64,000 nt of DNA from Oryzias latipes (Eukaryota; Chordata; Actinopteri; Beloniformes; Adrianichthyidae), in the NCBI RefSeq assembly GCF_002234675.1, contig NC_019878.2, positions 1,981,922 to 2,045,921 of the forward strand, read 5' to 3'. The notes under the pieces are model-generated. The model had not been told where the DNA came from. It worked only from the letters and a program-made list of their open reading frames with translations, and did no database searches. Positions 7,807-62,811 of this stretch are shown one piece after another. Both the position numbers and the translations under genes were made by a program. The first letter of the stretch is position 1, and the number at the start of each line of letters is the position of its first letter.

Positions 7807-7841
7807 GTTATGAGTCAGTACAAGTGATAGGGTTTAGAGTG

Positions 7842-8487
7842 TGTTCAAAATGGGAGGTGGCGGCCTCTCGTCCAATCAGAGCACGAGAAATCATCTGCCT
7901 TCCGTTTCATTCAAAGTGCCTTCCTTTTCATTCAAAGTGCCTTCCTTTTCATGCAAAGTAACTTCCGTTTCATGCATACTCCTCTCTCACACACACATAT
8001 AAACTCTTCCTCACACGTTCATATATACTTGTCTTTCACATACATACATTCTTTTTTAAGAGTGACAATGAGAGTGAGAATGTATGTATGTGTAAAGTAA
8101 TATATATGCATGCGAGAGAGAGAATATATGGATGTGCAAGTGAGAAAATATGAATGCGTAAGAGAATATATATGCATGCGAGAGAGAGAATATATGGATG
8201 TGCAAGTGAGAATATATGTATGCGAAAGAGAGTATATATGACTGTGAGAGCAAGAATGTATGAATGTGAGAGAGAGAATATATGGATGCGTAAGAGAATA
8301 TATGTATGCGAAAGAGAGTATATATGACTGTGAGAGCAAGAATGTATGAATGTGAGAGAGAGAATATATGGATGCGTAAGAGAATATATGTATGCGAAAG
8401 AGAGTATATATGACTGTGAGAGCAAGAATGTATGAATGTGAATGGTTCAGAATAAATAATGTCTTATACGGCCCCTCATAGATCTGT
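7842..8487 (-). repeat. Right arm of long inverted repeat, with 86-bp array
   Basis: Reverse complement of 1682-2260, running from tgttcaaaatgg to the ggcccctcatagatctgtg end. The satellite array (about 8036-8440) has more units than the left arm. The minus-strand ORFs of 208 and 129 codons are repeat artefacts. Confidence 0.8.
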
Positions 8488-9005
8488 GTTAAATATACAT
8501 TTTCTGTCAAATTAACACGTTTTACACAGTTTCTGAGGTTAAAAATCGCCGAATTTGAGTGTTGTGCGATCACAGATGGAGCGGAAACTCCTGGTGAGGC
8601 TCTTAAGCGCTGACGGCAGGACTCAATGTTAACAAAGGCGTGCACTGAAAACTCCGCTGCAGGCCCACAGAAAAAGCTTCAGGTGAGGCAAGCCTCACCA
8701 GCAGGGGGCAGACGTGAGACGTGACAGCTGCTTTGTAGCTACACTCCTGCTTCAGAAACAGACCAAGGATGTCTTTCTCCACTGAGAGGGAGACACTCAT
8801 ATAAACTTAAGGAAAATAAGTAAGACTTTTCCAACAGATCATAGAGCTGTTTGTGGAGATGGATCGGAGAATGGACTCAAAAAGTAAGGCCAAACATGTT
8901 TTTCAATGTTTGTTTTTTAAAAATAACTTGGGAATAAGTGGAAAAAATGTAAGTAAAATCCTTTATTTATAATCATTTTCACAGACAATATTTGATAACT
9001 GATTA
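8488..9005. other. hAT-like interior sequence
   Basis: Carries aaaatcgccgaattt, similar to aaaatcgctgaattt in the 7021 hAT (about 7182-7196), and a caggtgaggcaagcctcacc palindrome near 8678, the same motif style. Read as interior of the composite element. No coding sequence. Confidence 0.4.
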
Positions 9006-13208: not shown

Positions 13209-13778
13209 TGTCATGGTGCCTCTGTCAGCTCTCCTCCCCCTCCCCTCTCTGCTTGGCCTCTGATTCATCCCAGCTGCGTCCACTCATCTCATCACCCTAC
13301 CTGACCTACTTAAGGAGCCTCAAGACCAGGATTCAACGCCAGATCGTTGCCCCTGATGGTGCTAGTCTGGTCTCTCTCTCAGTCTTCTCATGCCAAGTAT
13401 CTTGTCCTTGTCTCACGTACGTTTCCCTGTCTCCAGGACCTTCATGCCCACGAGTGGACGCCTCGAATCAAGTGATTACCAAGCAGAACTTCACCGGAAG
13501 CCACCTATCTCGTCACGGAGCCTCAGCCACGTTCAAAACCATAGCCGAACCTCCAGCCACGCCAAGAACCGCAGCCGACCCGAAGCCACGTCGGAAGCCG
13601 CAGCCGTACATCAAAGTCTCGCTCCGGAATTTCGGCGGCCTCCCAACTTCGCCGTCCTCCTGCCACAGCAAACTACGTCACCCTCTGGAACAATAAACTC
13701 GTTTACTTACTTCCATTCACCTCCTGTCCTCTTTCCGGGTTCCAGCATCTGGGTCTGCCAAGTTAGCGAGTCATGACA
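13209..13778 (+). repeat. 5' LTR of the sushi-type element
   Basis: 570 bp, TGTCATGG to CATGACA. It contains a TATA-like TACTTAAGG at 13307-13315 and, 31 bases after its start, the predicted transcript start at ~13338. AATAAA occurs near 13692. Confidence 0.95.
13307..13348 (+). promoter_or_regulatory. LTR core promoter and self-primer (transcript 5' end)
   Basis: TACTTAAGG (13307) is followed 31 bases later by GCCAGATCGTT (13338-13348). That 11-mer is the exact reverse complement of AACGATCTGGC at 13780-13790, one base after the LTR. In Tf1/sushi elements the first 11 nt of the mRNA fold back to prime minus-strand synthesis; the spacing here fits that mechanism. Transcription start is inferred. 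Confidence 0.75.
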
Positions 13779-14807
13779 GAACGATCTGGCCAAACACCCG
13801 ACCCAGCTGACCCGGAGGGACTCCGCCTCGCCGTAACCCAGCAGGGAATCATGCTAGGACGTCAAGCTGACGCTCTAACCCAGATGGCATCAGCTCAGCA
13901 GGACTTATTTCGCCGTTTAGACGGTATGACACAAACTCTGATTGCATTAACTGGACAACATGCTAACTCTGCTACAGTTTCAGCCATACCATCTTCCGGC
14001 AATATCTCCGCTTCCGCTTCCGCTTCCGGTTTCGCTGACGCACCGGAAAACTTCCGACTACAACCGGAACTGTTTTCAGGTGACGTCGAAGCCTGCGGCG
14101 GTTTTCTATTGCAATGTCAACTCATATTCCAACAAGCCCCCAGGTACTATCACACGGACCACAGCAAAATCACTCTCATCATTAATTCACTTAGAAGCAA
14201 AGCCCTACAGTGGGCTCCACCCTTTATCTCGGCTAATCCCATCTCTCACCTTAGTTATGACCGTTTCCTAACTGAGTTTCGTCTGATTTTTGATCAGCCC
14301 CGTAAACAGGAAGAGGCTACAAAATGCCTCATAAATTTGAAACAACGTAACCGAACTGTCAGTGAACACGTCATAGATTTCCGTATCCTGGCAGTTGAAG
14401 CTGGCTGGCCAGACGTGGCGTTAAAAGGCATTTTTTATCAGTCACTGAACGAGTCCATAAAAGATCATTTGTGTACCCAACCTGAAGCTAATACGTTTGA
14501 AGATCTCGTCACAGCAGCTCTCAGATCCGACATCCGGCTCAGAGAACGTGAAAATGAACGTCCACAGAACTCAAAGAAATCTACCACCAACACAAGCTTC
14601 TCTACCGCCACGTTCCAGTCGCCTCCCCGAACAAATTTTAATCCAACCTCCAAAACACCGGAGGAACCTATGCAAATAGGTCATTCAACATTGTCAGCGG
14701 AGGATCGACAACGACGCAGGAATGAAGGTTCATGTTTCTATTGCGGGGCTCAAGGACACTTAGTTTCTCAGTGCCCTTTGCGTTTAAACTCCCGAACCCC
14801 CCGCTAA
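13773..14807 (+). CDS. Gag of the sushi-type LTR element
   Basis: 344 residues, starting at an ATG in the last bases of the LTR. Residues ~90-260 form the gag capsid-like region ([36 protein letters not shown]); residues ~328-341 form one CCHC zinc knuckle ([14 protein letters not shown]). It would form the particle that packages the element's RNA. The ORF is open throughout and ends at 14805-14807, inside the loop of a predicted frameshift hairpin, so pol is read by -1 slippage. A later ATG is possible, but none is better placed. Confidence 0.9.
13780..13790 (+). other. Self-complementary primer-binding site
   Basis: AACGATCTGGC, one base after the 5' LTR, is complementary over all 11 bases to the predicted start of the transcript at 13338-13348. 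No tRNA-type TGG primer site is present at this position. Confidence 0.75.
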
Positions 14808-16720
14808 GCGACAGGTCGCGGGGGGAAGAAGCTATCACCCATTCAACCATGAGTTTCCTTTATATTCCTGTCAAGATTGTTAGTACGAACAAAATTCATT
14901 TTTCGAAGGCCCTTATTGATTCCGGAGCAGAACAGAGCCTGATAGATCATGAGCTGGTTAACAAACTTTGCCTTCCCACAGAACCGTTGGATACCCCTGT
15001 CGAGGCCTCTGGCCTAGGAGGTCAACACCTCTCCAGGATAACACATCGCACCAAACCTGTTCAACTGCTTACGTCCGGTAACCACCGGGAAAAGATACAA
15101 TTTTTTATCACTCAATCTACTCACACTCGTATTGTTTTAGGCTTTTCATGGCTTAAACGTCATAACCCCCAGTTCAATTGGTGTCTAGGTCAGATCACTA
15201 ACTGGAGTGCCTATTGTCTGGCTAACTGTCTTTCGTCCGCTATACCTACCACTCCCCATCATCCCACTGTGCAGTCTAGTGAAGTTAATTTAGGAAAGAT
15301 CCCTGCATGTTATCATGACCTTCAAGATGTTTTTTGTAAGACTAGAGCTAACGCACTACCTCCCCATCGTCCCTACGATTGTGCGATTAACTTAGTGCCT
15401 GGCTCCACACTACCTAAGGGGAGATTATTCAACCTTTCCGGACCAGAAAAGCTCTCAATGGAAAGCTACATACAGGAGGCGCTCTCCCTGGGTCATATCC
15501 GCCCCTCCTCCTCCCCAATGGGAGCAGGGTTTTTCTTCGTGGAAAAAAAGGATAAATCACTTCGTCCCTGTATTGATTATCGGGAACTCAACCAAATAAC
15601 TATCAAGGATAAGTACTCTCTGCCTCTAATCACCTCTGTATTTGATTCTGTTCAGGAAGCACGCATCTTCACCAAACTGGATCTGCGCAATGCCTATCAC
15701 TTGGTGCGTGTCAAAGAAGGGGACGAGTGGAAGACGGCATTCAACACCCCCCTGGGGCACTATGAATACCTTGTAATGCCTTTTGGGTTGACCAACGCCC
15801 CTGCCATCTTCCAGAGACTCGTGAATGACGTCCTCAGAGACTTTCTGAACCGGTTTGTTTTCGTCTATTTGGACGACATTCCCATCTATTCCAGCAACCA
15901 AACTCAGCATGAGCAACATGTTCGTCAGGTACTCACTAGATTATTGGAAAACCAACTGTTTGTCAAATCTGAAAAATGTGAATTTCATGTGGGAACCGTC
16001 CAGTTTTTGGGGTACATCATAGAGGCTGGTCGTATACGACCCGACCCCTCCAAGATTGAGGCAGTGTCTAAATGGGAGCCCCCTAACAATCGGAAGAAAC
16101 TGCAACAATTCCTTGGGTTTGCCAATTTCTATAGACGTTTTATCAGAAATTATAGCAGCATAGCTGCTCCTCTCACCCGCCTGACTTCCACTAACATCAA
16201 CTTTCAGTGGACCCCTGAGGCTCAACGGGCTTTTGATCACCTTAAGGAACTATTTGTCACTGCTCCCATATTGATTCAACCGGACGCCTCACGCCAGTTT
16301 ATAGTTGAGGTGGATGCCTCGGACTCCGGGGTCGGAGCCGTCTTGTCCCAGAAGGAGCAAAAGTCAGGTAAACTCAAACCCTGTGCCTTTTTCCCTAAGA
16401 AATTGTCAGCAGCAGAACAGAACTACGACGTGGGTAACCATGAACTGTTGGCTATAAAACTGGCTCTGGAGGAGTGGCGGCACTGGCTGGAGGGGGCGGA
16501 ACAACCTTTCATCGTTTGGACTGATCATAAGAATCTGGCTTACTTGAGAATGGCTAAAAGACTTAACTCACGGCAGGCTCGGTGGTGCTTGTTCTTTGAT
16601 AGATTCCGTTTTACCATCACCTATCGACCCGGAACCCGGAATATCAAGCCCGATGCCCTCTCCCGTAAATATTGCTCCACAGAAAACCTGTATTGTGGGC
16701 GCCCTCACCTGGGATATTGA
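14732..16720 (+). CDS. Pol of the sushi-type element: protease, RT and RNase H
   Basis: Open in the -1 frame relative to gag over 662 codons (translated part begins at the slip site near 14789). Protease active site DSGAE at residues ~63-67; RT with [40 protein letters not shown] and catalytic YLDD at 15866-15877 (residue ~379); RNase H with [17 protein letters not shown] (~residue 528) and the WTDHKNL and DALSRK blocks. The reading frame runs out shortly after DALSRK, before the integrase, which continues in another frame. Catalytic residues appear present. Confidence 0.9.
14783..14825 (+). promoter_or_regulatory. -1 programmed ribosomal frameshift signal between gag and pol
   Basis: TTTAAAC at 14783-14789 lies in the gag frame as T TTA AAC, a canonical X-XXY-YYZ slippery heptamer. 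After a 7-base spacer, CCCCCCGC (14797-14804) pairs perfectly with GCGGGGGG (14818-14825) around a 13-base loop that holds the gag stop codon. An alternative GCGAC/GTCGC hairpin lies within the loop region. Pol is in exactly the frame a -1 slip would reach. Confidence 0.85.
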
Positions 16721-17890
16721 AAATCGAGTCCTCCAAGCTCAAGGTGAGGAACTCGATCATCCCCCATGTCCTAATGGTACCCTGTTTGTACCTACCGCCC
16801 TCAGGTCAGACGTCATTTCCTGGGGACACACCTCTCGAGTATCCTGTCATGGCGGCGCGTGGAGAACTCTCAATCTCCTCCGCAGAAGATTTTTCTGGCC
16901 TTCAATGGAGAAGGATGTTCGTGAGTTTGTGGCTGCCTGTACCACCTGCGCCCGCTCTAAAGCTTCCCATTCCGCTCCTGCCGGATTATTGCAACCCCTT
17001 CCGATCCCCAGCCGTCCCTGGTCCCATATTGCTTTGGACTTTGTCACTGGTTTGCCTCCCTCCCAGGGTAATTCCGTCTCACCTCCGGTTTTCACCCCCA
17101 GTCCAACGGCCAGGCGGAGAGGGCCAACCAGGAACTGGAGGCAGCTCTACGTTGCCTGGCGGCGCAGAATGAGAAGGACTGGTCCCAGTATCTAGTGTGG
17201 ATAGAGTATGCTCATAACACCCATCCATCCTCTGCTACTGGGGTGTCACCTTTTCAGGCCGCCCTCGGGTACTCACCACCTCTGTTTCCGTCCCAGGAAT
17301 TCGACTTGGCAGTGCCTTCGGTCCAACAACATCTCCAGCGTTGCCATCGCGTCTGGTGCCAAACCAGAGATGCTCTCCTCCGCACCAAGGAGAGCAACTG
17401 CCGCATCGCCAATCGACGCAGGGTGGTGGGGCCCGCTTACCAGCCTGGTCAGAGGGTATGGCTCTCTACGCGCAATATACCCATTCAAGCCCACTCCCGG
17501 AAGCTGGCTCCGCGGTTCATCGGACCCTACACTATTGAACGGATCATTAATCCTACCTGTGTCCGCCTTCGCCTTCCTCGAGCGCTTAAGGTACACCCCT
17601 CTTTCCACATCTCCCAGATCAAACCCGTTCAGGACAGTCCTCTGTGCCCGCCGTCCGCTTCCCCACCACCCGCCCGGGTCATCGACGGTGGCTCTGCCTA
17701 CACTGTCAGCCGCGTCCTGGACATCCGGCGGCGGGGTCGCGGGCACCAGTTCCTGGTTGATTGGGAGGGTTATGGTCCTGAGGAGCGATCTTGGATATCC
17801 CGCTCTCTCATCCTGGACCCGTCCCTCATCGAGGATTTCTTCCGGGCCCATCCTGATCGCCGTCCTGGACCGCCCGGAGGCGGTCGTTGA
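16690..17890 (+). pseudogene. Integrase and chromodomain of the sushi-type element, catalytic core deleted
   Basis: A first frame (to ~17085) gives the H-x-H...CxxC integrase zinc-binding end (SCHGGAWRTLNLLRRRFFW, CTTCARSKASH) and the start of the core (WSHIALDFVTGLPP). The sequence then jumps at ~17085 to the last part of the core in another frame ([17 protein letters not shown]), removing the region that holds the second catalytic aspartate. The C-terminal part is open (17195-17890): [19 protein letters not shown], then a chromodomain ([32 protein letters not shown]), which in chromoviruses guides insertion to particular chromatin. Confidence 0.9.
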
Positions 17891-17901
17891 GGGGGGGGTA
17901 C
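17889..17901 (+). other. Polypurine tract of the sushi-type element
   Basis: gaggggggggtac lies directly before the 3' LTR. The identical 13-mer precedes the 3' LTR of the repeat-ORF element at 40443-40455. Confidence 0.85.
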
Positions 17902-18471
17902 TGTCATGGTGCCTCTGTCAGCTCTCCTCCCCCTCCCCTCTCTGCTTGGCCTCTGATTCATCCCAGCTGCGTCCACTCATCTCATCACCCTACCTGACCT
18001 ACTTAAGGAGCCTCAAGACCAGGATTCAACGCCAGATCGTTGCCCCTGATGGTGCTAGTCTGGTCTCTCTCTCAGTCTTCTCATGCCAAGTATCTTGTCC
18101 TTGTCTCACGTACGTTTCCCTGTCTCCAGGACCTTCATGCCCACGAGTGGACGCCTCGAATCAAGTGATTACCAAGCAGAACTTCACCGGAAGCCACCTA
18201 TCTCGTCACGGAGCCTCAGCCACGTTCAAAACCATAGCCGAACCTCCAGCCACGTCAAGTACCGCAGCCGACCCGAAGCAGAGTCGGAAGCCGCAGCCGT
18301 ACATCAAAGTCTCGCTCCGGAATTTCGGCAGCCTCCCAACTTCGCCGTCCTCCTGCCACAGCAAACTACGTCACCCTCTGGAACAATAAACTCGTTTACT
18401 TACTTCCATTCACCTCCTGTCCTCTTTCCGGGTTCCAGCATCTGGGTCTGCCAAGTTAGTGAGTCATGACA
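17902..18471 (+). repeat. 3' LTR of the sushi-type element
   Basis: 570 bp, same length as the 5' copy. Differences cluster near 18257-18290 and at two other single sites. Followed by the gactt target duplication. Confidence 0.95.
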
Positions 18472-18476
18472 GACTT

Positions 18477-20262
18477 TGCCTAATTGCAGCAGCTAGAGGT
18501 TCAATAAATAGGGCAAATAAAGACGGAGATAGTGGACAGCCTTGTCTGGTTCCTCTTTGTAAATTAAAGCTTGGAGATGTTTGATCATTTGTTCTGATAC
18601 GAGCATTAGGAGAGGCATATAGTATTTTAATCCAGTTAATAAATGATTTTCCAAAGCCAAATTTGTTCAGGGTGGCTATTAAAAATTTCCAGTTGACCCA
18701 ATCAAATGCCTTTTCAGCGTCCAGTGACAAAATGGTTGCTTCTCGGTTGTTGATGGTTATATAATCTATGAGGTTGATTAATATGCGCATGTTGGTAGAT
18801 GAATGTCTACCTTTTATAAAACCTGTTTGGTCAGGATGTATGAGAGAGGGAACTACCTTCTCCAGCCTTCCTGCTAAGGCTTTGCAGATTATTTTAAGAT
18901 CTGCATTAATCAGCGATATGGGTCGATAGCTGGATGGTGATGTGGGATCTTTTCCAGGTTTCAGAAGTAAGATAATATTAGCAGAATTCATATTTGGAGG
19001 TAGATAATTGTTGTCCTTAATTTCTATTGTCATTCTGAGAAAAATGGGAGCTAAGATTTGCCAAAACTCTTTATAAAATTCTGCTGGGAAGCCGTCTGGT
19101 CCTGGGGCTTTTTTATTAGGCATGTTGGTTAATGCTTTATGTAGCTCTTCTTTAGTAAGAGGGGACTCCAGGGCTGTGATTTGTTCCTCTGTTGGTCTAG
19201 GCAAATCTATGCTATTGAGAAAACTATTAATGTCATTGTCAGAAGGATTAATTTGGGATGAGTAGAGAGATTGGTAAAAGTTTTTAAAAACAGAATTTAT
19301 TGCAGCTGGATCATGTCCAATCCACTAGTTTAGAGTTTTCTTTTCTTTTTTTGTGGGATGAGAAGGCGATTATTTTTCCTCTCATGACTGCTTTCCCATC
19401 CTCCCATAAAAGGCACGAGGAAATACCTGGGTGGTCATTATTTTGAAGATGTGAGGACCATTCTTTAGCAAAGAAATCTATAAAGTTAGAGTCTCTTAGC
19501 AACAATGAATTGAACCTCCAGCTCCTTAATGAAGACGGTGATGTTTTGTTTTTAAGAGTCAGGGAAACTGGTGCGTGGTCGCTGATAGTAATGGGGTGGA
19601 TCTGTGCTTCCGTAGCTATGCTCAACAAGGAGCTGTTAACCAAGAAATAATCTAGCCTGGAGTATGATTGATGAACTGTGGAAAAAGGTATAAGCTCTTT
19701 TTGTGGGGTGGAATAAACGCCAAATATCACAAAGACCAAGATCCTCCATGTACTGTTTAACAGTGTTTGTGGATTGCCAGATTCTAAGATTTCATGTGTT
19801 ATTTAGCCTATCCATCTCTGGATCTAAACACATGTTGAGGTCACCTGCAATGATTAGCGATTTGTCTGTATGTTCAGATAGCGCAGAGAAGAAGGAATGA
19901 AAGAATGAAGGGTCATCTACATTGGGGGCGTACACATTAGCTAAACACAGCTGCATATTTTAAGTGGAAAGAGTGACTATTATAAATCTTCCTTCTGGGT
20001 CTATGACTGTACTAGTTTCTGTGAATTTAATTTCCTTATTTATCATAATTGTTACTCCTCTCTGTCTAGAATTATAACAGGCTGAATATACGTTGGGAAA
20101 ATCTGCTGTGGCGAGAATATTCACCAAGGAATTAGACATATGAGTTTCTTGAAGAAACGCAAAATCAGTTTTGAGATCTTTTAATTTGCTCATTATTTTC
20201 AGTCTCTTCTCTCTGGTTCCAGCTCCTTGCACATTCCAAGTAACTAACCTTAGGGTGGACAT
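18477..20262 (-). pseudogene. L1 ORF2, endonuclease and N-terminal reverse transcriptase
   Basis: Minus strand from a plausible ORF2 start at 20262 (MSTLRLVTWNVQGAGTREKR). Endonuclease marks: N in TWNVQG, E in FLQETHM, GDLNM near 19835, and SDHAPVSL at 19570. RT from 19204: KAPGPDGFPAEFYKEFW, SYRPISLINADLKI, DAEKAFDWVNW and GTRQGCPLSPSLFALF. The frame breaks between ~19960 and 19740 and again near 19300. The LTR element interrupts it just before YADD. Confidence 0.9.
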
Positions 20263-32460: not shown

Positions 32461-33520
32461 AAAAAATGTATTTAAATGTAGTTTTTTGACAAACCATCAA
32501 TGTTTTTATCTTCAGAAGACAGTGGACTCATAAATAATCGCCGCAAAACGTTCATTTTAATTAGATTTTAACTTATGTGGAATCGAAGTAGTGAGCATGG
32601 CGTCTGAATTGCTTTTAAAAATTCAGGACACTACATAGTGCCGCACTATGATTTTTTTTTTTGTAGGTTAGGGTGGGAAATCTGACACAACCCATGTCCA
32701 TGTCATGGAGTTACCTAGAGACACTCAGCCACCTGATCACACTTCATCCTTCATTCACATTTTTCAGACAGTTGTTACAATTTTTACACTTTTCTCTCAA
32801 AGGTTCAAACCATAGAAAAACAAATCAAGTATTATGGAATGAAAATAAAGATCTGCTCGCGGTTGGAGATGTATGTAACTTTGGTAAACTGAACCTGGGA
32901 GGGTTCTGTTGCTCAGTTTGGTTTTGATGTTTTGGTCATGTTCTGAGTTGCCCTGTCTGTCACACCAGATCCAGGTTGTTCATCCACAGCTGTCATTTTA
33001 GTTCATGGCCCTCAGACTATTAAAGTGTCTGGTTTTCTGTTTATCCTTGGTCAGGTCATCTGCTCTTTACTGCTTTGTTTTTCATGTTTCAGTTTGTTCA
33101 TTAAATATGGTTTAATGGCAGAGAGAAGGATCGTTAGAGAGAAAGTGTGGTAATAAGTTAGAAATTGCAAAGAAGATTGAGAAATTACCTTCAGGCACAA
33201 GTTCTGTGCTTAGAACCTTTATTTAAAAATATAGTAGACAACTTTATTTTGCTTCACAGTACAGTGTTTATTATGGTTAATCTTTTTCTGTCTTGCTGTT
33301 TCATGAATGTTTTAGCCCAATTTTAAATTATTTTTTAACTGTATCAATGTCTGTGCCATGTCTCTTCTACAGAGTGATTCTGTCAAGACCTGGAGGTGGA
33401 GGACCCAAAATGCAGGAGACCAGGCTTGGTGACGGGAAATAATATATAAATTAACACAAACTGTCAAGGCTTGACAGGCGGCTCCGCCTCAGTCACAATA
33501 AACTGTTTTTATAAACGTAA
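32461..33520. other. Unassigned sequence
   Basis: AT-rich. 33370-33500 (tgtcaagacctggaggtgga, ggcttgacaggcggctccgc) looks like part of an LTR but has no partner here. Confidence 0.35.
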
Positions 33521-33926
33521 CTATTTCTCCACACCAGGCATTTACAGACGCAAATGGTTCTCATAACGGGTTTATTTGGTCTCTCCAAATCCACCGTGAA
33601 AACTGCATAGACAAACATAATAGAAACTTCTTTGACAACGAACATACATTATAAACAGACAGTTAAAACAAATAAATGAATCACCTCGTTGGCTGCATGC
33701 CGAGATGGGAGTTACTCTTATTGTCCTCTCATCCACATCTGGTATTCTTTGCATACAAACGTGGTGCTCCTGCTTCCAGCGTCTCTCTTCTCTGTCCGTA
33801 CAATCTGCGCTAAACAAGTAAGCACTTCCGGTATTTTCAAAATAAAATTACCTTCAAAATAAACTTCTCATAACTTAACCAACATTTATTAAACAAAACA
33901 CAACAGACTAACAAATGACCGTTACA
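33521..33926 (-). repeat. 3' LTR of the BEL element
   Basis: Plus-strand ctatttctccacaccaggca to aaatgaccgttaca. It has a short extra aaagaa-like stretch and a few substitutions against the other LTR. Confidence 0.9.
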
Positions 33927-33939
33927 CTCCCACCAAATC

Positions 33940-38045: not shown

Positions 38046-38358
38046 CCGCAGTTACCATTGCCGCTGTAGGTACCATAACCGTTCGGCCTGGAACTTCCCT
38101 TCGGGGTCCTTCGACTAGTGCTGACGTCACATTATGTGATTGGCTGTGTGTTGGTCTGATGACGTGTCAGACAGTGATTGGTCTGGATAATTTACGATAC
38201 TATCTATCTATTTACCAAGGCTGTGTCCCACCAAGGTGGGGTAGCCTAGACAGGGCACACAATTTTAACTCCCTCCTTCTCTTCCCCAAACCCTCCTTCT
38301 TCAGTGTGTGCGTGTGTGTGTGCGTTGGTGTGTGTGTGTGACACTGGTCTAAGGCCTG

Positions 38359-38781
38359 TGTCATGGTTTGAATTTATTTTGTATTAGTTTTTGCTTTCTG
38401 TCTTGTTCTGTCATGGTTAAGTTCTGTTTCCTGTTTTATTTTGAAAGGTTTCCTGTCTTGTCTTGTTTCTTGAGTTTTACTTCCTTTGGTCCCCATCTGC
38501 CCTGATCGTGTTCACCTGTGTCTTGTCTGCCCTGTCTGTATATAAGTCTTGTCTCTGCCTTCCTCCTGTGTTGGTCCATTATTCCTGTCTGGTGTTCATG
38601 TCATGCCATGTTCCTCGTTCCTTGTCTCATGCCACGTCACAGTGAGTTTTTGTTTTTTGGTTTTGTCATCCTGCTCAGCAGCGCCTTTTGTTTGTAATTA
38701 AACCCCTTGCCCTGGAACTGTGTGCCTCCGCCTCTGCATACTGGGTCCTACCGGCTTTCGAGCCACCCCACCACCGTGACA
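38359..38781 (+). repeat. 5' LTR of the repeat-ORF element
   Basis: 423 bp; perfect TATATAAG at 38539-38546. Confidence 0.92.
38539..38580 (+). promoter_or_regulatory. LTR promoter and self-primer of the repeat-ORF element
   Basis: TATATAAG at 38539 is followed 31 bases later by GTTGGTCCATT (38570-38580), the exact reverse complement of AATGGACCAAC at 38783-38793, one base beyond the LTR. Spacing and length equal those of the element at 13209. Confidence 0.75.
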
Positions 38782-38782
38782 G

Positions 38783-38793
38783 AATGGACCAAC
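38783..38793 (+). other. Self-complementary primer-binding site
   Basis: AATGGACCAAC, after the LTR and a single g, complementary over 11 bases to the predicted transcript start. It overlaps the start codon of the ORF. Confidence 0.72.
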
Positions 38794-40517
38794 CTTATTT
38801 TCTGGACCCAGCAGAGCGGGACATGCGGCTTTTGGAGGCCTACTGCCTGGAAGCAGAGCAGACCAGGACATTCTGGGTTTTGGACCAGGCCCAGCTCTCC
38901 TCTTATCCCTGGAGTGGGGGCCTCCAGGATTTTACTGGGAGCCGGCTTGCCCTGAGGGGGGGTCGTCGTCGCCGCCACCGTCCCCGTCCACGTCCAGTGG
39001 TGGTCCCGGACGCACCACAACTTCGTCCAGTGGTGGTCCCGGACGCACCACAACCTCGTCCAGTGGTGGTCCCGGACGCACCACAATCTCGTCCAGTGGT
39101 GGTCCCGGACGTCCCCCGACCCGTCCCGGCTCCCGATGGGGTGCCGCCTGCGCCCCGACCCGTTCCTGCTCCCAGGGGGGTGCCGCCTGCGCCCCGACCC
39201 GTTCCTGCTCCAAGGGGGGTGCCGCCTGCGCCCCGACCCGTTCCAGCTCCCAGGGGGGTGCCGCCTGAACCCCGACCGGTCCCCGCTTCCACTGGCACGC
39301 CTGACCCGCCTGAGCTCGGCTCCACGCCTGACCCGCCTGAGCTCGGCTCCACGCCTGACCCGCCTGAGCTCGGCTCCACGCCAGACCCGCCTGAGCTCGG
39401 CTCCACGCCAGACCCGCCTGAGCTCGGCTCCACGCCAGACCCGCCTGAGCTCGGCTCCACGCCAGACCCGCCTGAGCTCGGCTCCACGCCAGACCCGCCT
39501 GAGCTCGGCTCCACGCCTGACCCGCCTGAGCCTGACTGCTGGCCCGACCCGCCTGAGCCTGACTGCTGGCCCGACCCGCCTGAGCCTGACTGCTGGCCCG
39601 ACCCGCCTGAGCCTGACTGCTGGCCCGACCCGCCAGAGCCTGACTGCTGGCCCGACCCGCCAGAGCCTGACTGCTGGCCCGACCCGCCAGAGCCTGACTG
39701 CTGGCCCGACCCGCCAGAGCCTGACTGCTGGCCCGACCCGCCTGAGCCTGACTGCTGGCCCGACTCCTCCAAGCCTGACTGCTGGCCCGACTCCTCCAAG
39801 CCTGACTGCTGGCCCGACTCCTCCAAGCCTGACTCCATGCCCGACTCCTCCAAGCCTGACTCCATGCCCGACTCCTCCAAGCCTGACTCCATGCCCGACT
39901 CCTCCAAGCCTGACTCCATGCCCGACTCCTCCAAGCCTGACTCCATGCCCGACTCCTCCAAGCCTGACTCCATGCCCGACTCCTCCATGCCCGACTCCTC
40001 CATGCCCGACTCCTCCATGCCCGACTCCTCCATGCCCGACTCTTCCATGCCCGACTCCTCCATGCCCGACTCCTCCAAGCCCGACTCCAAGCCCGACTCC
40101 AAGCCCGACTCCAAGCCCGACTCCAAGCCCGACTCCAAGCCCGACTCCATGACGCCTGACAACTCCAAGCCCGACTCCAAGCCCGACTCCATGCCTGACG
40201 ACTCCACGCCTGACGGCTCGGCCCCCCGGCCGCCCGCCGGACCTGCCTCGCCCGACGGCTCGGCCGCCCGCCGGACCTGCCTCGCCGGACGGCTCGGCCC
40301 CCCGGCCGTCCGCCGGACCTGCCTCGCCAGACGGCGCGGATCCCCGGCAATCCTCCAGACTCCTTGGACTCTTATGCCCGTCGAGGTTTGTCCTCCGGGG
40401 CCCCCCCCTCAGTTGACTTTGGGAACCTCGGAGCGGTTCCTTGAGGGGGGGGTACTGTCATGGTTTGAATTTCTTTTGTATTGGTTTTTGCTTTCTGTCT
40501 TGTTCTGTCATGGTTAA
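38784..40517 (+). CDS. Repetitive proline/aspartate-rich protein of the non-autonomous LTR element
   Basis: 577 residues. Residues 1-60 are non-repetitive (MDQPYFLDPAERDMRLLEAY) and may be the only folded part. Then an arginine-rich patch (RRRRHRPRPRP), four RPVVVPDAPQ repeats (30 bp), four PVPAPRGVPPAPR (39 bp), eight PDPPELGST (27 bp), about nine PDPPEPDCW (27 bp), then SSKPDCWPD and SSKPDSMPD (27 bp), SSMPD (15 bp) and SKPD (12 bp) runs, a GPASPDGSAARRT tail, and a hydrophobic end read into the 3' LTR. All periods are multiples of three, so the frame is kept. The start at 38784 is the first ATG after the LTR. No known domain; role unknown, possibly an RNA-binding or packaging stand-in for gag. 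Confidence 0.7.
   Translation: MDQPYFLDPAERDMRLLEAYCLEAEQTRTFWVLDQAQLSSYPWSGGLQDFTGSRLALRGGRRRRHRPRPRPVVVPDAPQLRPVVVPDAPQPRPVVVPDAPQSRPVVVPDVPRPVPAPDGVPPAPRPVPAPRGVPPAPRPVPAPRGVPPAPRPVPAPRGVPPEPRPVPASTGTPDPPELGSTPDPPELGSTPDPPELGSTPDPPELGSTPDPPELGSTPDPPELGSTPDPPELGSTPDPPELGSTPDPPEPDCWPDPPEPDCWPDPPEPDCWPDPPEPDCWPDPPEPDCWPDPPEPDCWPDPPEPDCWPDPPEPDCWPDPPEPDCWPDSSKPDCWPDSSKPDCWPDSSKPDSMPDSSKPDSMPDSSKPDSMPDSSKPDSMPDSSKPDSMPDSSKPDSMPDSSMPDSSMPDSSMPDSSMPDSSMPDSSMPDSSKPDSKPDSKPDSKPDSKPDSKPDSMTPDNSKPDSKPDSMPDDSTPDGSAPRPPAGPASPDGSAARRTCLAGRLGPPAVRRTCLARRRGSPAILQTPWTLMPVEVCPPGPPPQLTLGTSERFLEGGVLSWFEFLLYWFLLSVLFCHG
40443..40455 (+). other. Polypurine tract of the repeat-ORF element
   Basis: gaggggggggtac, identical to 17889-17901. 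Confidence 0.85.
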
Positions 40518-40878
40518 GTTCTGTTTCCTGTTTTATTTTGAAAGGTTTCCTGTCTTGTCTTGTTTCTTGAGTATTACTTCCTTTGGTCCCCATCTGTCCT
40601 GATCGTGTTCACCTGTGTCTTGTCTGCCCGGTCTGTATATAAGTCTTGTATCTGCCTTCCTCCTGTGTTGGTCCATTATTCCTGTCTGGTGTCCATGTCA
40701 TGCCATGTTCCTCAATCCTTGTCTCATGCCACGTCACAGTGAGTTTTTGTTTTTTGGTTTTGTCATCCTGCTCGGCAGCGCCTTTTGTTTGTAATTAAAC
40801 CCCTTGCCCTGGAACTGTGTGCCTCCGCCTCTGCATTCTGGGTCCTACCGGCTTTCGAGCCACCCCACCACCGTGACA
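40456..40878 (+). repeat. 3' LTR of the repeat-ORF element
   Basis: 423 bp, followed by gcctg. Confidence 0.92.
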
Positions 40879-41017
40879 GCCTGGTCTAAGCCACACCACA
40901 CTGCACCAGGGTCAGCTGCACACTCCAGTGTGGACACCTCCACAGCAGGGCCTCAGCCAAGGCTGGTTTCCCCTTGCCGCTTCATCCCAAGACCAGACCT
41001 CTACCACACCCTTCCAT

Positions 41018-45286: not shown

Positions 45287-45734
45287 TTTAGAAATGATTA
45301 CCTTTCAATCAAAACACTTAGTTGAAATCAGAAAATTCAATATCTTAAAACAAAATCTTGTATGTTTTTTCAAACACTTATCTTTGCAGTATAAAAATTC
45401 GTAAACCTTAACCATGTAAATTTCAAACTCTTAACTTAAAACACTTAACTCACTAGAACACTTAACTTGAGTATTAAACAGTATGCACATTTCTCTCATT
45501 TCAAAACACACTTTAAGTTCAAAAATGAAATCCAGATGTAAATATCTTTGTCATGCTTCAGTCCGACGCACCAAATATGCAAGTCAAGAGTAGCTTCAAA
45601 CGTTTGCGATCGCTTAAGTTTTAACCACTCATCTGACTGTCCTTTGATGTCATGCTGCAGGCGCGTGCTCGCTGCGTGGTAGCTCTTGCGCTCTTTTTCT
45701 TCTCCACTCGCGTCGAGGAGCAGTCGAGTTTTCA

Positions 45735-46137
45735 CTATTTCTCCACACCAGGCATTTACAGACGCAAATGGTTCTCATAACGGGTTTATTTGGTCTCTCC
45801 AAATCCACCGTGAAAACTGCACATACAAACATAATAGAAACTTCTTATGAACATACATTGTAAACAGACAGTCAAACAAATATAAATAAATCACCTCGTT
45901 GGCTGCATGCCGAGATGGGAGTTACTCTTAGTGTCCTCTCATCCACATCTGGTATTCTTTGCATACAAACGTGGTGCTCCTGCTTCCAGCGACTCTCTTC
46001 TCTGTCCATACAATGTGCGCTAGGCAAGGTAAGCACTTCCGGTATTTTCAAAATAAAATTACCCTCAAAATAAACTTCTCATAACTTAACCAACATTTAT
46101 TAAACAAAACACAACAGACTAACAAATGACCGTTACA
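45735..46137 (-). repeat. 5' LTR of the BEL element
   Basis: 403 bp; about 10 differences and one short indel against 33521-33926. Confidence 0.9.
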
Positions 46138-46140
46138 GTC

Positions 46141-46290
46141 ACACATAACCATCTGATGAAGACTCTGACGAAAACGTTCGTCGGAACATGTCGGGTATGT
46201 TTAAACACTACCGTGTCTGATAACAGAAGAACCAAGAAGTCGATTAATAAAACAGACTCTATGAACCTTATTTGACTAACACTTCTCCCC
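46141..46290 (+). ncRNA. Penelope-like element end with hammerhead-ribozyme-like core
   Basis: Conserved order of a hammerhead: stem I strand acataacc (46143-46150), CTGATGA (46153-46159), GAAA (46170-46173), a stem III of about five pairs (cgttc/gaaca), the cleavage triplet GTC (46190-46192), then gggtatgt (46193-46200), pairing 7 of 8 with the first strand. Stem II (agactctgac) does not pair well, so activity is doubtful. Hammerheads of this kind occur at the ends of Penelope-like retroelements. No RT is visible. Confidence 0.45.
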
Positions 46291-59941: not shown

Positions 59942-62811
59942 TTATTGTAAGTGGTCCATGTATCTTAGTTTTAAAATCTTTTTGAAATGATATTTGTTAC
60001 TAATAAGCCTTGTCCTTACAGACACTTGATTCCATGCAACAGAAGATCTAAACAGCACTGTTCTTCTCATATAGTTAGATCTTGAAAAAGGAACAATCAA
60101 ATCACCAGAGCTGACCTGACGAGTTTGATATTGGTGACAATACCCACTGTATAAAACTTTGTTTACCAAATATTGTGGACATTTTTTAAAAATGACATTG
60201 TGCATTAAGCATTGAAGACTGAGTTGTACTTTGTCTTTTACCATCAACCAACCTAAAATGGTATGCATCTCGTTCACATTGGTCCAAAAAGAGCAACCAA
60301 AAGCCACCCTGGCAGCTCGATTTTGGGCAAGTTGTAATTTTTTTAGATGCCCCTGTGTCGCACTAGACCAAATGACTGGGCAATACTCCAGATGTGACAA
60401 AACCAAAGACTGTACAACTGTCCTCATGACTGAAGGTGGACAATATTGCGCACACCTCCAAGCCAGGGCGATTCCTCTGCCCATCTTGGATACTATGTGA
60501 TTAATCTGATCTGTCCAAGAGAGCTGATCATCTAATTTGATGCCCAGAAGCTTGGTTTTAGTCACTTGTTCAACTAAACTATTGTCAATCCTCAAATTCA
60601 GGTAACATGGTGCATTCAATAAATATTTTGTACCGAAAACGATGCATTTTGTTTTAGATGTATTAAGAACCAATTTATTCAACTTAACCCAATTGGTGAC
60701 TAAATTAAGTTGATTCTGTAGGGCTGTATTGAGCTCTGGCACAGTAGTAGATGCACAGAATAAAGTTGCATCATCTGCATATAACACCACTTCTGCATTT
60801 CTAATCTCCTGGGACATATCATTTACAAACACTGAAAATAAAAGTGGACCCAAACAACTACCTTGTGGAACCCCACATGACATAAACTTTGTTTCAGACA
60901 AGCTGCCATTGAAGAGGACTTTCTGTGTTCTGCCATTAAGATAATTTCTTATCAGTGAAAGAGCCAATTGTGAAAATCCATAACATTTGAGCTTTGCCAA
61001 CAGAATATCATGGTCGATTACATCAAAAGCAGCTGTGAAATCTAAAAGTACCGCACCCACATATTTTTATCATCCAAATGTGTTAACCAGTGGTCTACCA
61101 TATGTACTAATGCCGTATTGGTTGAATGACCTGGTCTGTAGGCATGCTGTGCACTAGTAAACAGATCATTTGAGATAAAGTAATGTAGCATTTGATTAAA
61201 TATCAACCTTTCAAAAATTTTACTCAAAACAGGGAGAACATGAACTGGTCTGCAGTTTGAAGCAGTAAACTCTGACTTTTCATCCTTAATTAGAGGTATA
61301 ATTTTTGATTGTTTCCATTGGTCAGGAAACACACCACTGATCAGTGCTCTATTAAAAATATGACATATTGGTTTGTCCAAAACATTTGCAACTATTTTAA
61401 GGATTCTACCATCAATGTAATCAATACCTGGTGTTTTATCGTCAGGTAATGAGAGAAGCAAATCTTGAACATTATTCTCACTAACAGTGTCGAACACCAA
61501 GGAACAAGCTTTATTTTCCATTGTCAATTGAATATTTTGACAAGGAGAGCTTATATCCTGTGCTACCATAGAGGATCTCAGCTTTTCAACTTTGTTAATG
61601 AAAAAGTCATTCAAATGATTGGCAATATCAAATGGTTTACTGACACTAATGCCACCAATTTCCATATTCAAATTAAAAGTCTTTGTTTTTTTGCACATCA
61701 GTTCTTGTAACACTTTCCACAATCTTTTACTGTCATTCATGGAACCACAAATTTTTTGTCCAAAATATTTTTTTTTTTTCAAAAAGTTTAATTTTGTAAC
61801 TTTATTCCTTAATATGCGATAGTTTGTATAATCCTCTACATGTTTAGAGTTGGAAGCCACCTTTTTTGCGTTGTCTCTCCGCTTCATGAGTGATAATAAT
61901 TCCTCATCTAACCATGGAGCACTATTACTTTTTACCGTTCTTTTACGAAGTGGAGCATGTTTCTCAACAATCTTTCCAAACGTTGCCATAAAAATGTTCA
62001 AAGAAGCATTTACATCAATTTCCTGCACAACTGTAGACCAATTCGAACTTTTGATATCATCAATAAATAGATTGGGATTAAAATGTTTATAGGATCTGCG
62101 ATACATGATTCTTCCACCGGATTTAGGCATTTTTGTTTGCTTTGTAATGGCTATCAAATTATGATCAGAACACCCTACTCCAATAGAAACTGCCTGGGAG
62201 CATAAATCAGGAACGTTAGTGTAAATGTGATCTATACAGGTTGATTTAGATGAATTATCCATAGCAATTCTAGTTGGTTGTGTCATGACCTGTTTAAGAT
62301 TACATGTATTAGCCATTGTAATGATCTTTTCAAACAAAAAACTTTTTTTTGAAAACCAGTCTATATTAAAGTCCCCAAGAAGAAACATTTCCCCACATTT
62401 ATTTGAGACCATTTCCATATTTTCACATATTTTTTGTAAGTATTCTGCATTGGAGCTAGGTGGTCTGTAACAACAACCGACCAGTGTTGGTTTACTAAAT
62501 GGAAGATTAATTTGCAACCATATTACTTCGATGTCTCTGCTCATTAACTCTGATTTTAGGGTAGCAACAATATTCTCCTTTACATAGAATGCTACTCCTC
62601 CACCATTTTGATTCCTATCTCTTCTGTATAATCTGTACCCATCAACATTTAGCATTGAGTTTTCAAAAGTACTATCTAGGTGTGTTTCAGATAAGGCTAA
62701 GACATGAATATTTTCAGTCAAACATATTTGTGTGATTTCATTAATCTTGTTTCTCAAGCTACATATATTTAAGTGTGCTAAAACTATACCTGTTTTGTGG
62801 CCCATTTGCAA
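59942..62811 (-). pseudogene. LINE ORF2: endonuclease and reverse transcriptase, one frameshift
   Basis: Endonuclease (62811 onward): LAHLNICSLRNK, LALSETHLD, LLGDFNIDW, CIDHIYTN and SDHNLI hold the expected N, E, D/N and S-D-H residues. RT: LPVLSKIFERLIFNQML, HAYRPGHSTNTALVHMVDHW, then a one-base-type frame change at 61060-61042, LLDFTAAFDVIDHDILLAKL, GVPQGSCLGPLLFSVFVND and YADD in VLYADDATLF. The C-terminus reads SHLEYCPVIWS and LQLAQNRAARVAF. All else is open, so the copy was active not long ago. Cuts target DNA and copies its RNA at the cut. Confidence 0.9.

Follow-up and report, generated by a model that had tools for sequence, protein, structure and literature searches.

How does a long terminal repeat (LTR) retrotransposon that encodes no polymerase of its own prime its replication, and why would it keep a protein? 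This question is raised by an element of 2520 bp at positions 38359-40878 of a 64,000-nt stretch of DNA from medaka (Oryzias latipes), hereafter the window, to which all positions refer; it belongs to contig 20 of the 25-contig, 734-Mb assembly that was used for genome-wide searches. The presence of an LTR element at this place, as described in an initial annotation of the sequence, was confirmed. The element very probably represents a medaka family of non-autonomous LTR retrotransposons with self-priming of the Tf1/sushi type, which uses gag-pol functions in trans and encodes a protein with a constrained head. The features on which the argument draws are the following:

38354-38358, + strand: left target duplication, GCCTG
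38359-38781, + strand: 5' LTR, 423 bp
38539-38546, + strand: TATA-like box TATATAAG, by consensus match only
38570-38580, + strand: putative self-primer GTTGGTCCATT at the presumed RNA start; exact 11-nt complement of the primer-binding site (PBS), with which it co-varies
38585-38594, + strand: 5' arm of a stem predicted by folding beside the primer; present, not co-varying
38772-38782, + strand: 3' arm of the predicted stem, by folding; LTR end plus one-base gap
38783-38793, + strand: PBS AATGGACCAAC, with the ATG of the open reading frame (ORF) inside it
38784-40517, + strand: ORF of 577 amino acids, with its stop inside the 3' LTR in the window copy; no Pfam family
38784-38969, + strand: constrained head of the ORF, 62 codons; omega (nonsynonymous to synonymous rate ratio) 0.21-0.28, in the ORF frame only
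38991-40348, + strand: tandem-repeat part of the ORF, with units of 33, 39, 27, 15 and 12 nt and others
40441-40455, + strand: TTGAGGGGGGGGTAC, which includes the polypurine tract and is identical in the gag-pol element of the window
40456-40878, + strand: 3' LTR, 423 bp
40879-40883, + strand: right target duplication, GCCTG

The two LTRs are identical at 412 of 423 positions (11 mismatches, no gaps), and a single base, G at 38782, separates the 5' LTR from the PBS. The PBS AATGGACCAAC is the exact complement of the LTR sequence GTTGGTCCATT, 31 nt after the TATA-like TATATAAG, and this 11-nt relationship, already pointed out in the initial annotation, was reproduced exactly. It is the longest complementarity starting 0-5 nt past the LTR, and the same length was found in a gag-pol element elsewhere in the window; when the LTRs were shuffled in two-base blocks, such a match arose in 25 of 20,000 trials for the element and in 15 of 20,000 for the gag-pol element. 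The interior consists of a single ORF that starts at the ATG in the PBS (38784), is composed mostly of tandem units and extends through the purine tract, where the window copy reads past the TGA at 40442, located in another frame. No Pfam family was detected in this ORF (P0001) at E 0.001, and tblastn searches of 86 loci with the gag, pol and integrase pieces of the window gave matches in two loci only, L047 and L075, in each case beyond the LTRs; L001/L002, which together contain the element, gave none. The Pfam scan and tblastn therefore agree with the claim that the element lacks gag, protease, reverse transcriptase (RT) and integrase. With LTRs, a PBS, a purine tract and a target duplication, and with neither RT nor integrase, it is a non-autonomous LTR retrotransposon.

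Evidence for self-priming comes from the way in which primer and PBS change among copies. Genome-wide counts, which were restricted to junctions with 190-220 nt between the primer and GACAG and are independent of the sampling of loci, yielded 61 junctions with the matched pair GTTGGTCCATT and AATGGACCAAC (GTTGG/AAC) and 62 with the matched pair GCTGGTCCATT and AATGGACCAGC (GCTGG/AGC). As for the mismatched combinations, GTTGG was never found with AGC, and GCTGG was found twice with AAC; reversed-pattern controls were zero for all four primer/PBS combinations. Thus, the primer site and the LTR 11-mer, whose co-variation the initial annotation had proposed to test, do co-vary across copies, with 123 matched versus 2 mismatched junctions. 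A further change points in the same direction: alone among 53 distinct copies, L075 carries the PBS AATGCACCAAC together with GTTGGTGCATT in both LTRs and, since the double change is present in both LTRs, it has passed through a round of replication. Random mismatching of the two 11-mers, set beforehand as the observation that would speak against the proposal, was seen neither in the counts nor in L075. At the level of sequence, this co-variation supports self-priming like that of Tf1 and sushi elements. One copy of mixed composition, L039 (1055-2791), has GTTGG in the 5' LTR, AAC in the PBS and GCTGG in the 3' LTR, possibly as the result of recombination or template switching between the two classes.

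The 21-base motif covering the LTR end and the PBS was found, allowing up to 3 mismatches, at 271 places genome-wide compared with 8 for the reversed control. The 86 loci are a non-random sample, comprising the loci of the 30 top-ranking LTR matches out of 40 that were scored (from 2276 candidates), 30 exact-match loci among the 271 motif places, 20 loci picked for PBS or junction variants, and 6 of the CCATGACAG junction class. LTR pairs were measured in 12 copies besides that of the window, 11 of them distinct (L011 and L012 are the same). These 11 elements are 1533-2368 bp long, their LTR pairs differ by 0 to 0.067, and nine are flanked by perfect 5-bp target duplications, the exceptions being L036 (one base off) and L079 (in a tandem unit). 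Two of the 11 pairs, those of L043 and L052, show no mismatch, which indicates that some copies of the family moved recently. Family junctions lying 1.6-1.9 kb apart in the same orientation were also observed, at C1:27933105-27938560, C1:33308787-33314022, C15:11049248-11051360 and C17:7051979-7053896; they resemble tandem arrays with units sharing LTRs, likely caused by unequal recombination.

The head of the ORF was shown to be coding sequence under purifying selection. Out of 58 heads read, 31 ungapped ones were kept (one of them, L069, with a stop) and 27 were dropped: 11 whose indels of 3, 21 or 108 nt keep the frame (L052 also has a 5-nt insertion), 2 under 80% identity, L070 (15- and 3-nt indels), and 13 broken or mostly missing. 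With the first 5 codons omitted for their overlap with the PBS, omega across the 31 heads was 0.21 in the ORF frame versus 1.59 and 0.91 in the other frames; the corresponding values for 11 representatives of less than 93% identity were 0.28 (codon bootstrap 0.17-0.43), 1.41 and 0.98. Changes shared by at least 2 copies were 33 nonsynonymous to 41 synonymous, whereas singletons were 24 to 10 (Fisher p 0.014), a contrast expected with selection on active lineages and free decay of dead copies. About 70% or more identity to the window head over 186 nt was retained by 48 of the 58 heads, and the deletions present in 4 copies (21 nt) and in 6 copies (108 nt) have lengths divisible by three. The head is followed by an Arg-rich stretch and then by hypervariable Pro-rich tandem repeats, a part that varies in length.

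A constrained head at this place could be a relic of the N-terminus of Gag, in which case the element would be a deletion derivative of an autonomous sushi family that has lost gag-pol. Indeed, the ORF begins at the LTR/PBS junction, like Gag, and a DPA-E motif recognised by eye lies 24 nt past the LTR end here and 22 nt past it in the Gag of the window. Against this, hhalign comparison of 24 distinct heads with an 18-protein Gag alignment gave probabilities of 0.13-0.15%, inside the range of 20 heads with shuffled columns (0.1-2.5%), so that a Gag origin of the head was not supported; furthermore, none of the 123 family junctions is followed by a scored RT match, the best RT candidates being those scored. 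Such a derivation is considered unlikely. Searches for other relatives of the head gave none among 229 and 12 candidates in two protein searches at E 0.001, with a length window of 0.55-1.75 of the query that could hide some, and none was confirmed among 62 pattern-matching stretches of viral contigs, where exact matches were zero. A single-sequence structure model of the head (predicted local distance difference test, pLDDT, 63; one helix, 9-27) was too weak for a fold search.

Several results weigh against a self-primed family with a constrained protein, and some of them fit other explanations. Concerning the ORF, indels break the frame or most of the sequence is missing in 13 of the 58 heads; omega for the C-terminal tail was 0.87 in 17 tails (L039 and L041, apparently misaligned, were kept), which does not clearly indicate constraint; and in 35 copies the ORF ends at the purine-tract TGA in 8, after it in 9 and before it in 18, with 12 of these 18 early ends lying more than 200 nt upstream. 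The omega of the tail and the variable ends, together with a repeat part that is open on the opposite strand too (434 and 472 amino acids), would suit an element that is deleted and passive, its ORF being a mere by-product of GC-rich tandem repeats with few stops. However, omega of 0.21-0.28 in the non-repetitive head, confined to the ORF frame, and too few shared amino-acid changes relative to singletons make that explanation very unlikely.

With regard to the primer, the 5' copy is exact in 39 of the 53 distinct copies, has one mismatch in 8 and was not found within 2 mismatches in 6. Twenty copies with both LTRs readable were located by means of the TATA box and a primer with at most 2 mismatches, a search that leaves strongly decayed 3' primers uncounted. 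The primer matches in both LTRs in 11 of them, fails in just the 5' LTR in 3 and in just the 3' LTR in another 3; in the remaining 3 it is mismatched in each LTR, because of primer nucleotide 1 in L036 and L066 and of a changed PBS in L074. Since two of the mismatches in both LTRs affect nucleotide 1, the primer may not need its first base, or the start of the RNA may lie one base further downstream. Primer identity to the window copy is 0.973 over 64 LTRs versus 0.878 for the whole LTR; nevertheless the primer ranks only 72nd of 413 LTR windows in conservation, and the case is thus not built on conservation alone. When 38570-38840 was folded, the primer paired with the PBS over 11 bp in the minimum-energy and in the centroid structure, and an adjacent stem formed by CUGUC/GACAG and UGGUG/CACCG was predicted as well. 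No co-variation was found in this adjacent stem (permutation p 0.51, 49 copies), and the leader is no more stable than its shuffles (z 0.62).

When the A/G state of the primer was placed on an LTR tree of 49 copies built with the primer removed, 4 changes were needed (bootstrap 3-4), whereas the starred branches force only one. A single forced change would be expected from a founder effect, in which one matched pair became fixed in each of two old subfamilies and no mechanism maintained it. This is improbable to a high degree, as 4 changes are required on the tree, a different position is altered in L075, and even a single double change requires a reason for both sites to move jointly. Priming by a tRNA, in which TGGACCAAC in the PBS would pair with the 3' CCA end (GTTGGTCCA) and the LTR match would be incidental, is scarcely credible: the TGG triplet does lie three bases past the LTR end, inside the 0-5 bp zone of tRNA sites in a plant survey (PMC6317226), but the PBS co-varies with the LTR 11-mer 123 to 2, and the PBS of L075, AATGCACCAAC, has no TGG there and is yet matched in both LTRs.

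Self-priming by an element without RT raises the matter of the partner. The window contains one element for comparison:

13209-18471, + strand: sushi-type gag-pol element, not established as helper; Gag, protease, RT, RNase H, Tf2-type SH3 and chromodomain families; LTRs

Both elements share TTGAGGGGGGGGTAC, the first 9 and last 5 nt of the LTR and, as previously noted, the one-base gap between LTR and PBS. The identity of the polypurine stretch therefore stands, with its length corrected from 13 to 15 nt; the common LTR start stands as well (9 nt), while the ends, initially called near-identical, have only 5 nt (TGACA) in common. The primer of the gag-pol element lies at 13338, with TACTTAA 31 nt upstream, a distance read by eye. 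Apart from the ends, no similarity between the LTRs was found: searched against the window at E 0.01, the LTR of the element matched only its own two copies. None of the four gag-pol ORFs scanned gave the integrase-core family of Pfam, and hence this copy, judged by its sequence, may itself be defective. Its leader was folded from 13354, behind the primer, and is uninformative on pairing; it is less stable than its shuffles (z 2.66). With an LTR unrelated beyond its ends, a different PBS and a possible defect, this element is not established as the partner. An antisense RT ORF (18467-19204) follows the gag-pol copy and antisense ORFs, among them one that matches zf-RVT weakly, precede it, as if the copy had inserted into a long interspersed nuclear element (LINE).

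Other candidates were sought genome-wide with the RT of the window as query, the best 115 of 4083 candidate places being scored. The match is stop-free in 109 of these 115, in open frames of 441-1518 amino acids. The gag-pol-type junction ATGACAGAACGNACNGG occurs 503 times (control 0), and 10 of 100 such junctions listed have an RT match less than 6 kb downstream; in the element family, one of the 115 scored RT matches was found within 6 kb downstream of none of the 62 and none of the 61 junctions. The pair CCAGTCCGTT / AACGGACTGG was found at 49 gag-pol-type junctions, 29 of them with a scored RT match about 1.7 kb downstream, and the pair CCAGTTCGTT / AACGAACTGG at 7; these counts cover matched combinations only, and no co-variation is claimed for gag-pol elements. 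Judging from these pairs, the candidate helpers look self-primed as well, by another primer: over 10 positions, the PBS of one gag-pol type differs from that of the element family at 3 or 4 and that of the other at 4 or 5. Copies with CCATGACAG at the junction were considered as the autonomous partner and rejected, as all 6 fetched carry the MDQP head in the ORF frame. AGC-type junctions were also observed in pairs, at C3:12074437 and 12079195 (4758 bp apart) and at C17:6808366 and 6812363 (3997 bp), spacings near the size of the gag-pol unit in the window (4693 bp); none of the 115 scored RT matches lies between the members of either pair.

The initial annotation had suggested a non-autonomous element replicated in trans by a self-priming sushi-type partner. 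Self-priming is supported by the co-variation, and non-autonomy by three observations: gag-pol is missing from the element, no scored RT match lies within 6 kb downstream of any of the 123 junctions, and the LTRs are identical in 2 of 11 pairs. As for the partner, we infer from the shared ends, the 15-nt stretch, the 5-bp duplications, the priming geometry and the many stop-free sushi RT copies that autonomous sushi elements of the same genome supply Gag, RT/RNase H and integrase; given the recent copies and the many sushi RT copies, mobilisation by an autonomous partner is likely.

In the mechanism proposed, the RNA of the element would start at about 38570, and its first 11 nt would pair with the PBS one base past the LTR. 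RNase H would cut after nucleotide 11, as in Tf1, and the released piece would prime minus-strand DNA, while plus-strand synthesis would copy the primer into a new PBS. In LTR replication generally, plus-strand DNA that copies the primer can rewrite the PBS, and a primer change would then spread in later rounds. Copying of primer into PBS would thus produce co-variation with no need of a lucky second mutation and, because the primer is part of the element's own RNA, the pair could drift together and need not equal that of the helper. Autonomous sushi elements would provide Gag, RT/RNase H and integrase in trans. The product of the ORF might aid the element's own RNA, for instance in its entry into helper particles, a guess based on the weak selection expected on a trans-acting product of a parasite. 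A more specific version, in which the parasite is independent of its helper for priming through its own drifting primer/PBS pair and also has a dedicated, non-Gag, cis-acting protein that loads its RNA into helper particles, is put forward tentatively, as a possibility short of even likelihood.

Some additional features were observed in medaka gene models and in the window. In models P0036 and P0044, the N-terminal half of sushi Gag is fused directly to the integrase C-terminus and chromodomain; these could be spliced or deleted elements or annotation artefacts. Model P0003, named heart- and neural crest derivatives-expressed protein 2 isoform X1, contains sushi Gag and is probably chimeric or misnamed. 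The window also holds inverted repeats at 1662-2268 and 7834-8505 (94-95% identical over about 540 bp, partly minisatellite, about 5.6 kb between them), a direct repeat pair at 33520-33933 and 45734-46144 (about 414 bp, 94% identical), and antisense LINE-type ORFs with endonuclease and RT families at 59945-62811.

Each of the separate traits has precedents: self-priming is known, and so are LTR elements that are non-autonomous and semi-autonomous elements that carry an ORF. Terminal-repeat retrotransposons in miniature (TRIMs), such as those of bivalves (PMC6934838) and Helenus and Ajax (PMC10886601), resemble the medaka element in having LTRs, typically with a PBS and polypurine tract in the interior, and no gag-pol; unlike TRIMs, which are under 1000 bp, it measures 2520 bp and has a constrained ORF head. 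The bivalve report refers to self-priming as established in other cases, but puts forward no clear mechanism (PMC6934838). Closer in organisation are the wheat elements RLG_Quinta, RLG_Sabrina, RLG_WHAM and part of RLC_Angela, described as non- or semi-autonomous, without RT or integrase and presumably cross-mobilised; some keep an ORF, that of Quinta comprising GAG and a domain of unknown function (PMC11302176, PMC9744471). The medaka element likewise lacks RT and integrase and keeps an ORF. In contrast to the Gag-only type of Quinta and Sabrina, its ORF is not detectably Gag (hhalign 0.13-0.15%, no Pfam Gag), very distant homology being possible. Moreover, the partners Cereba and Quinta are described as having an identical PBS (PMC11302176, PMC9744471), whereas the PBS of the medaka element differs from those of the gag-pol elements found. 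In the titles and abstract openings of the literature searched, the combination of a co-varying primer/PBS pair, a PBS unlike that of the helper and a constrained non-Gag head was not described, and within that literature, mostly of non-subscription journals, no description was found of this family or of primer/PBS co-variation in self-primed elements.

Co-variation across more than 100 copies supports self-priming in a fish, in an element without its own RT. A general rule is also suggested: with tRNA priming, a parasite would have the same PBS as its helper, but a self-primed parasite, given its mechanism and the different primer of the candidate helpers, need not, and so matching parasites to helpers by identical PBS could miss the self-primed class. 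The constrained head, in turn, raises the question of why a protein is retained in an element apparently mobilised in trans. An 11-nt self-primer is known from Tf1 (PMC7175516), and self-priming, demonstrated for this fission-yeast element, has also been invoked for elements from further hosts, vertebrates included (PMC4600332). For Tf1 and its relatives a leader structure of three duplexes around the primer has been described (PMC10085805), which the predicted primer duplex and single adjacent stem resemble in part. Like Tf1, Tf2, Tj1 and sushi-ichi, the medaka element has an 11-nt self-primer at the presumed RNA start, an LTR-adjacent PBS and a predicted stem, and it agrees with the sushi-type element of the window in its LTR ends, its purine tract and a duplication of 5 bp; unlike the Tf1/sushi chromoviruses, which encode Gag, protease, RT and integrase with a chromodomain, it encodes none of these and has an ORF of its own with a constrained head. 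It thus works like an autonomous member of the Tf1/sushi group, but is not one.

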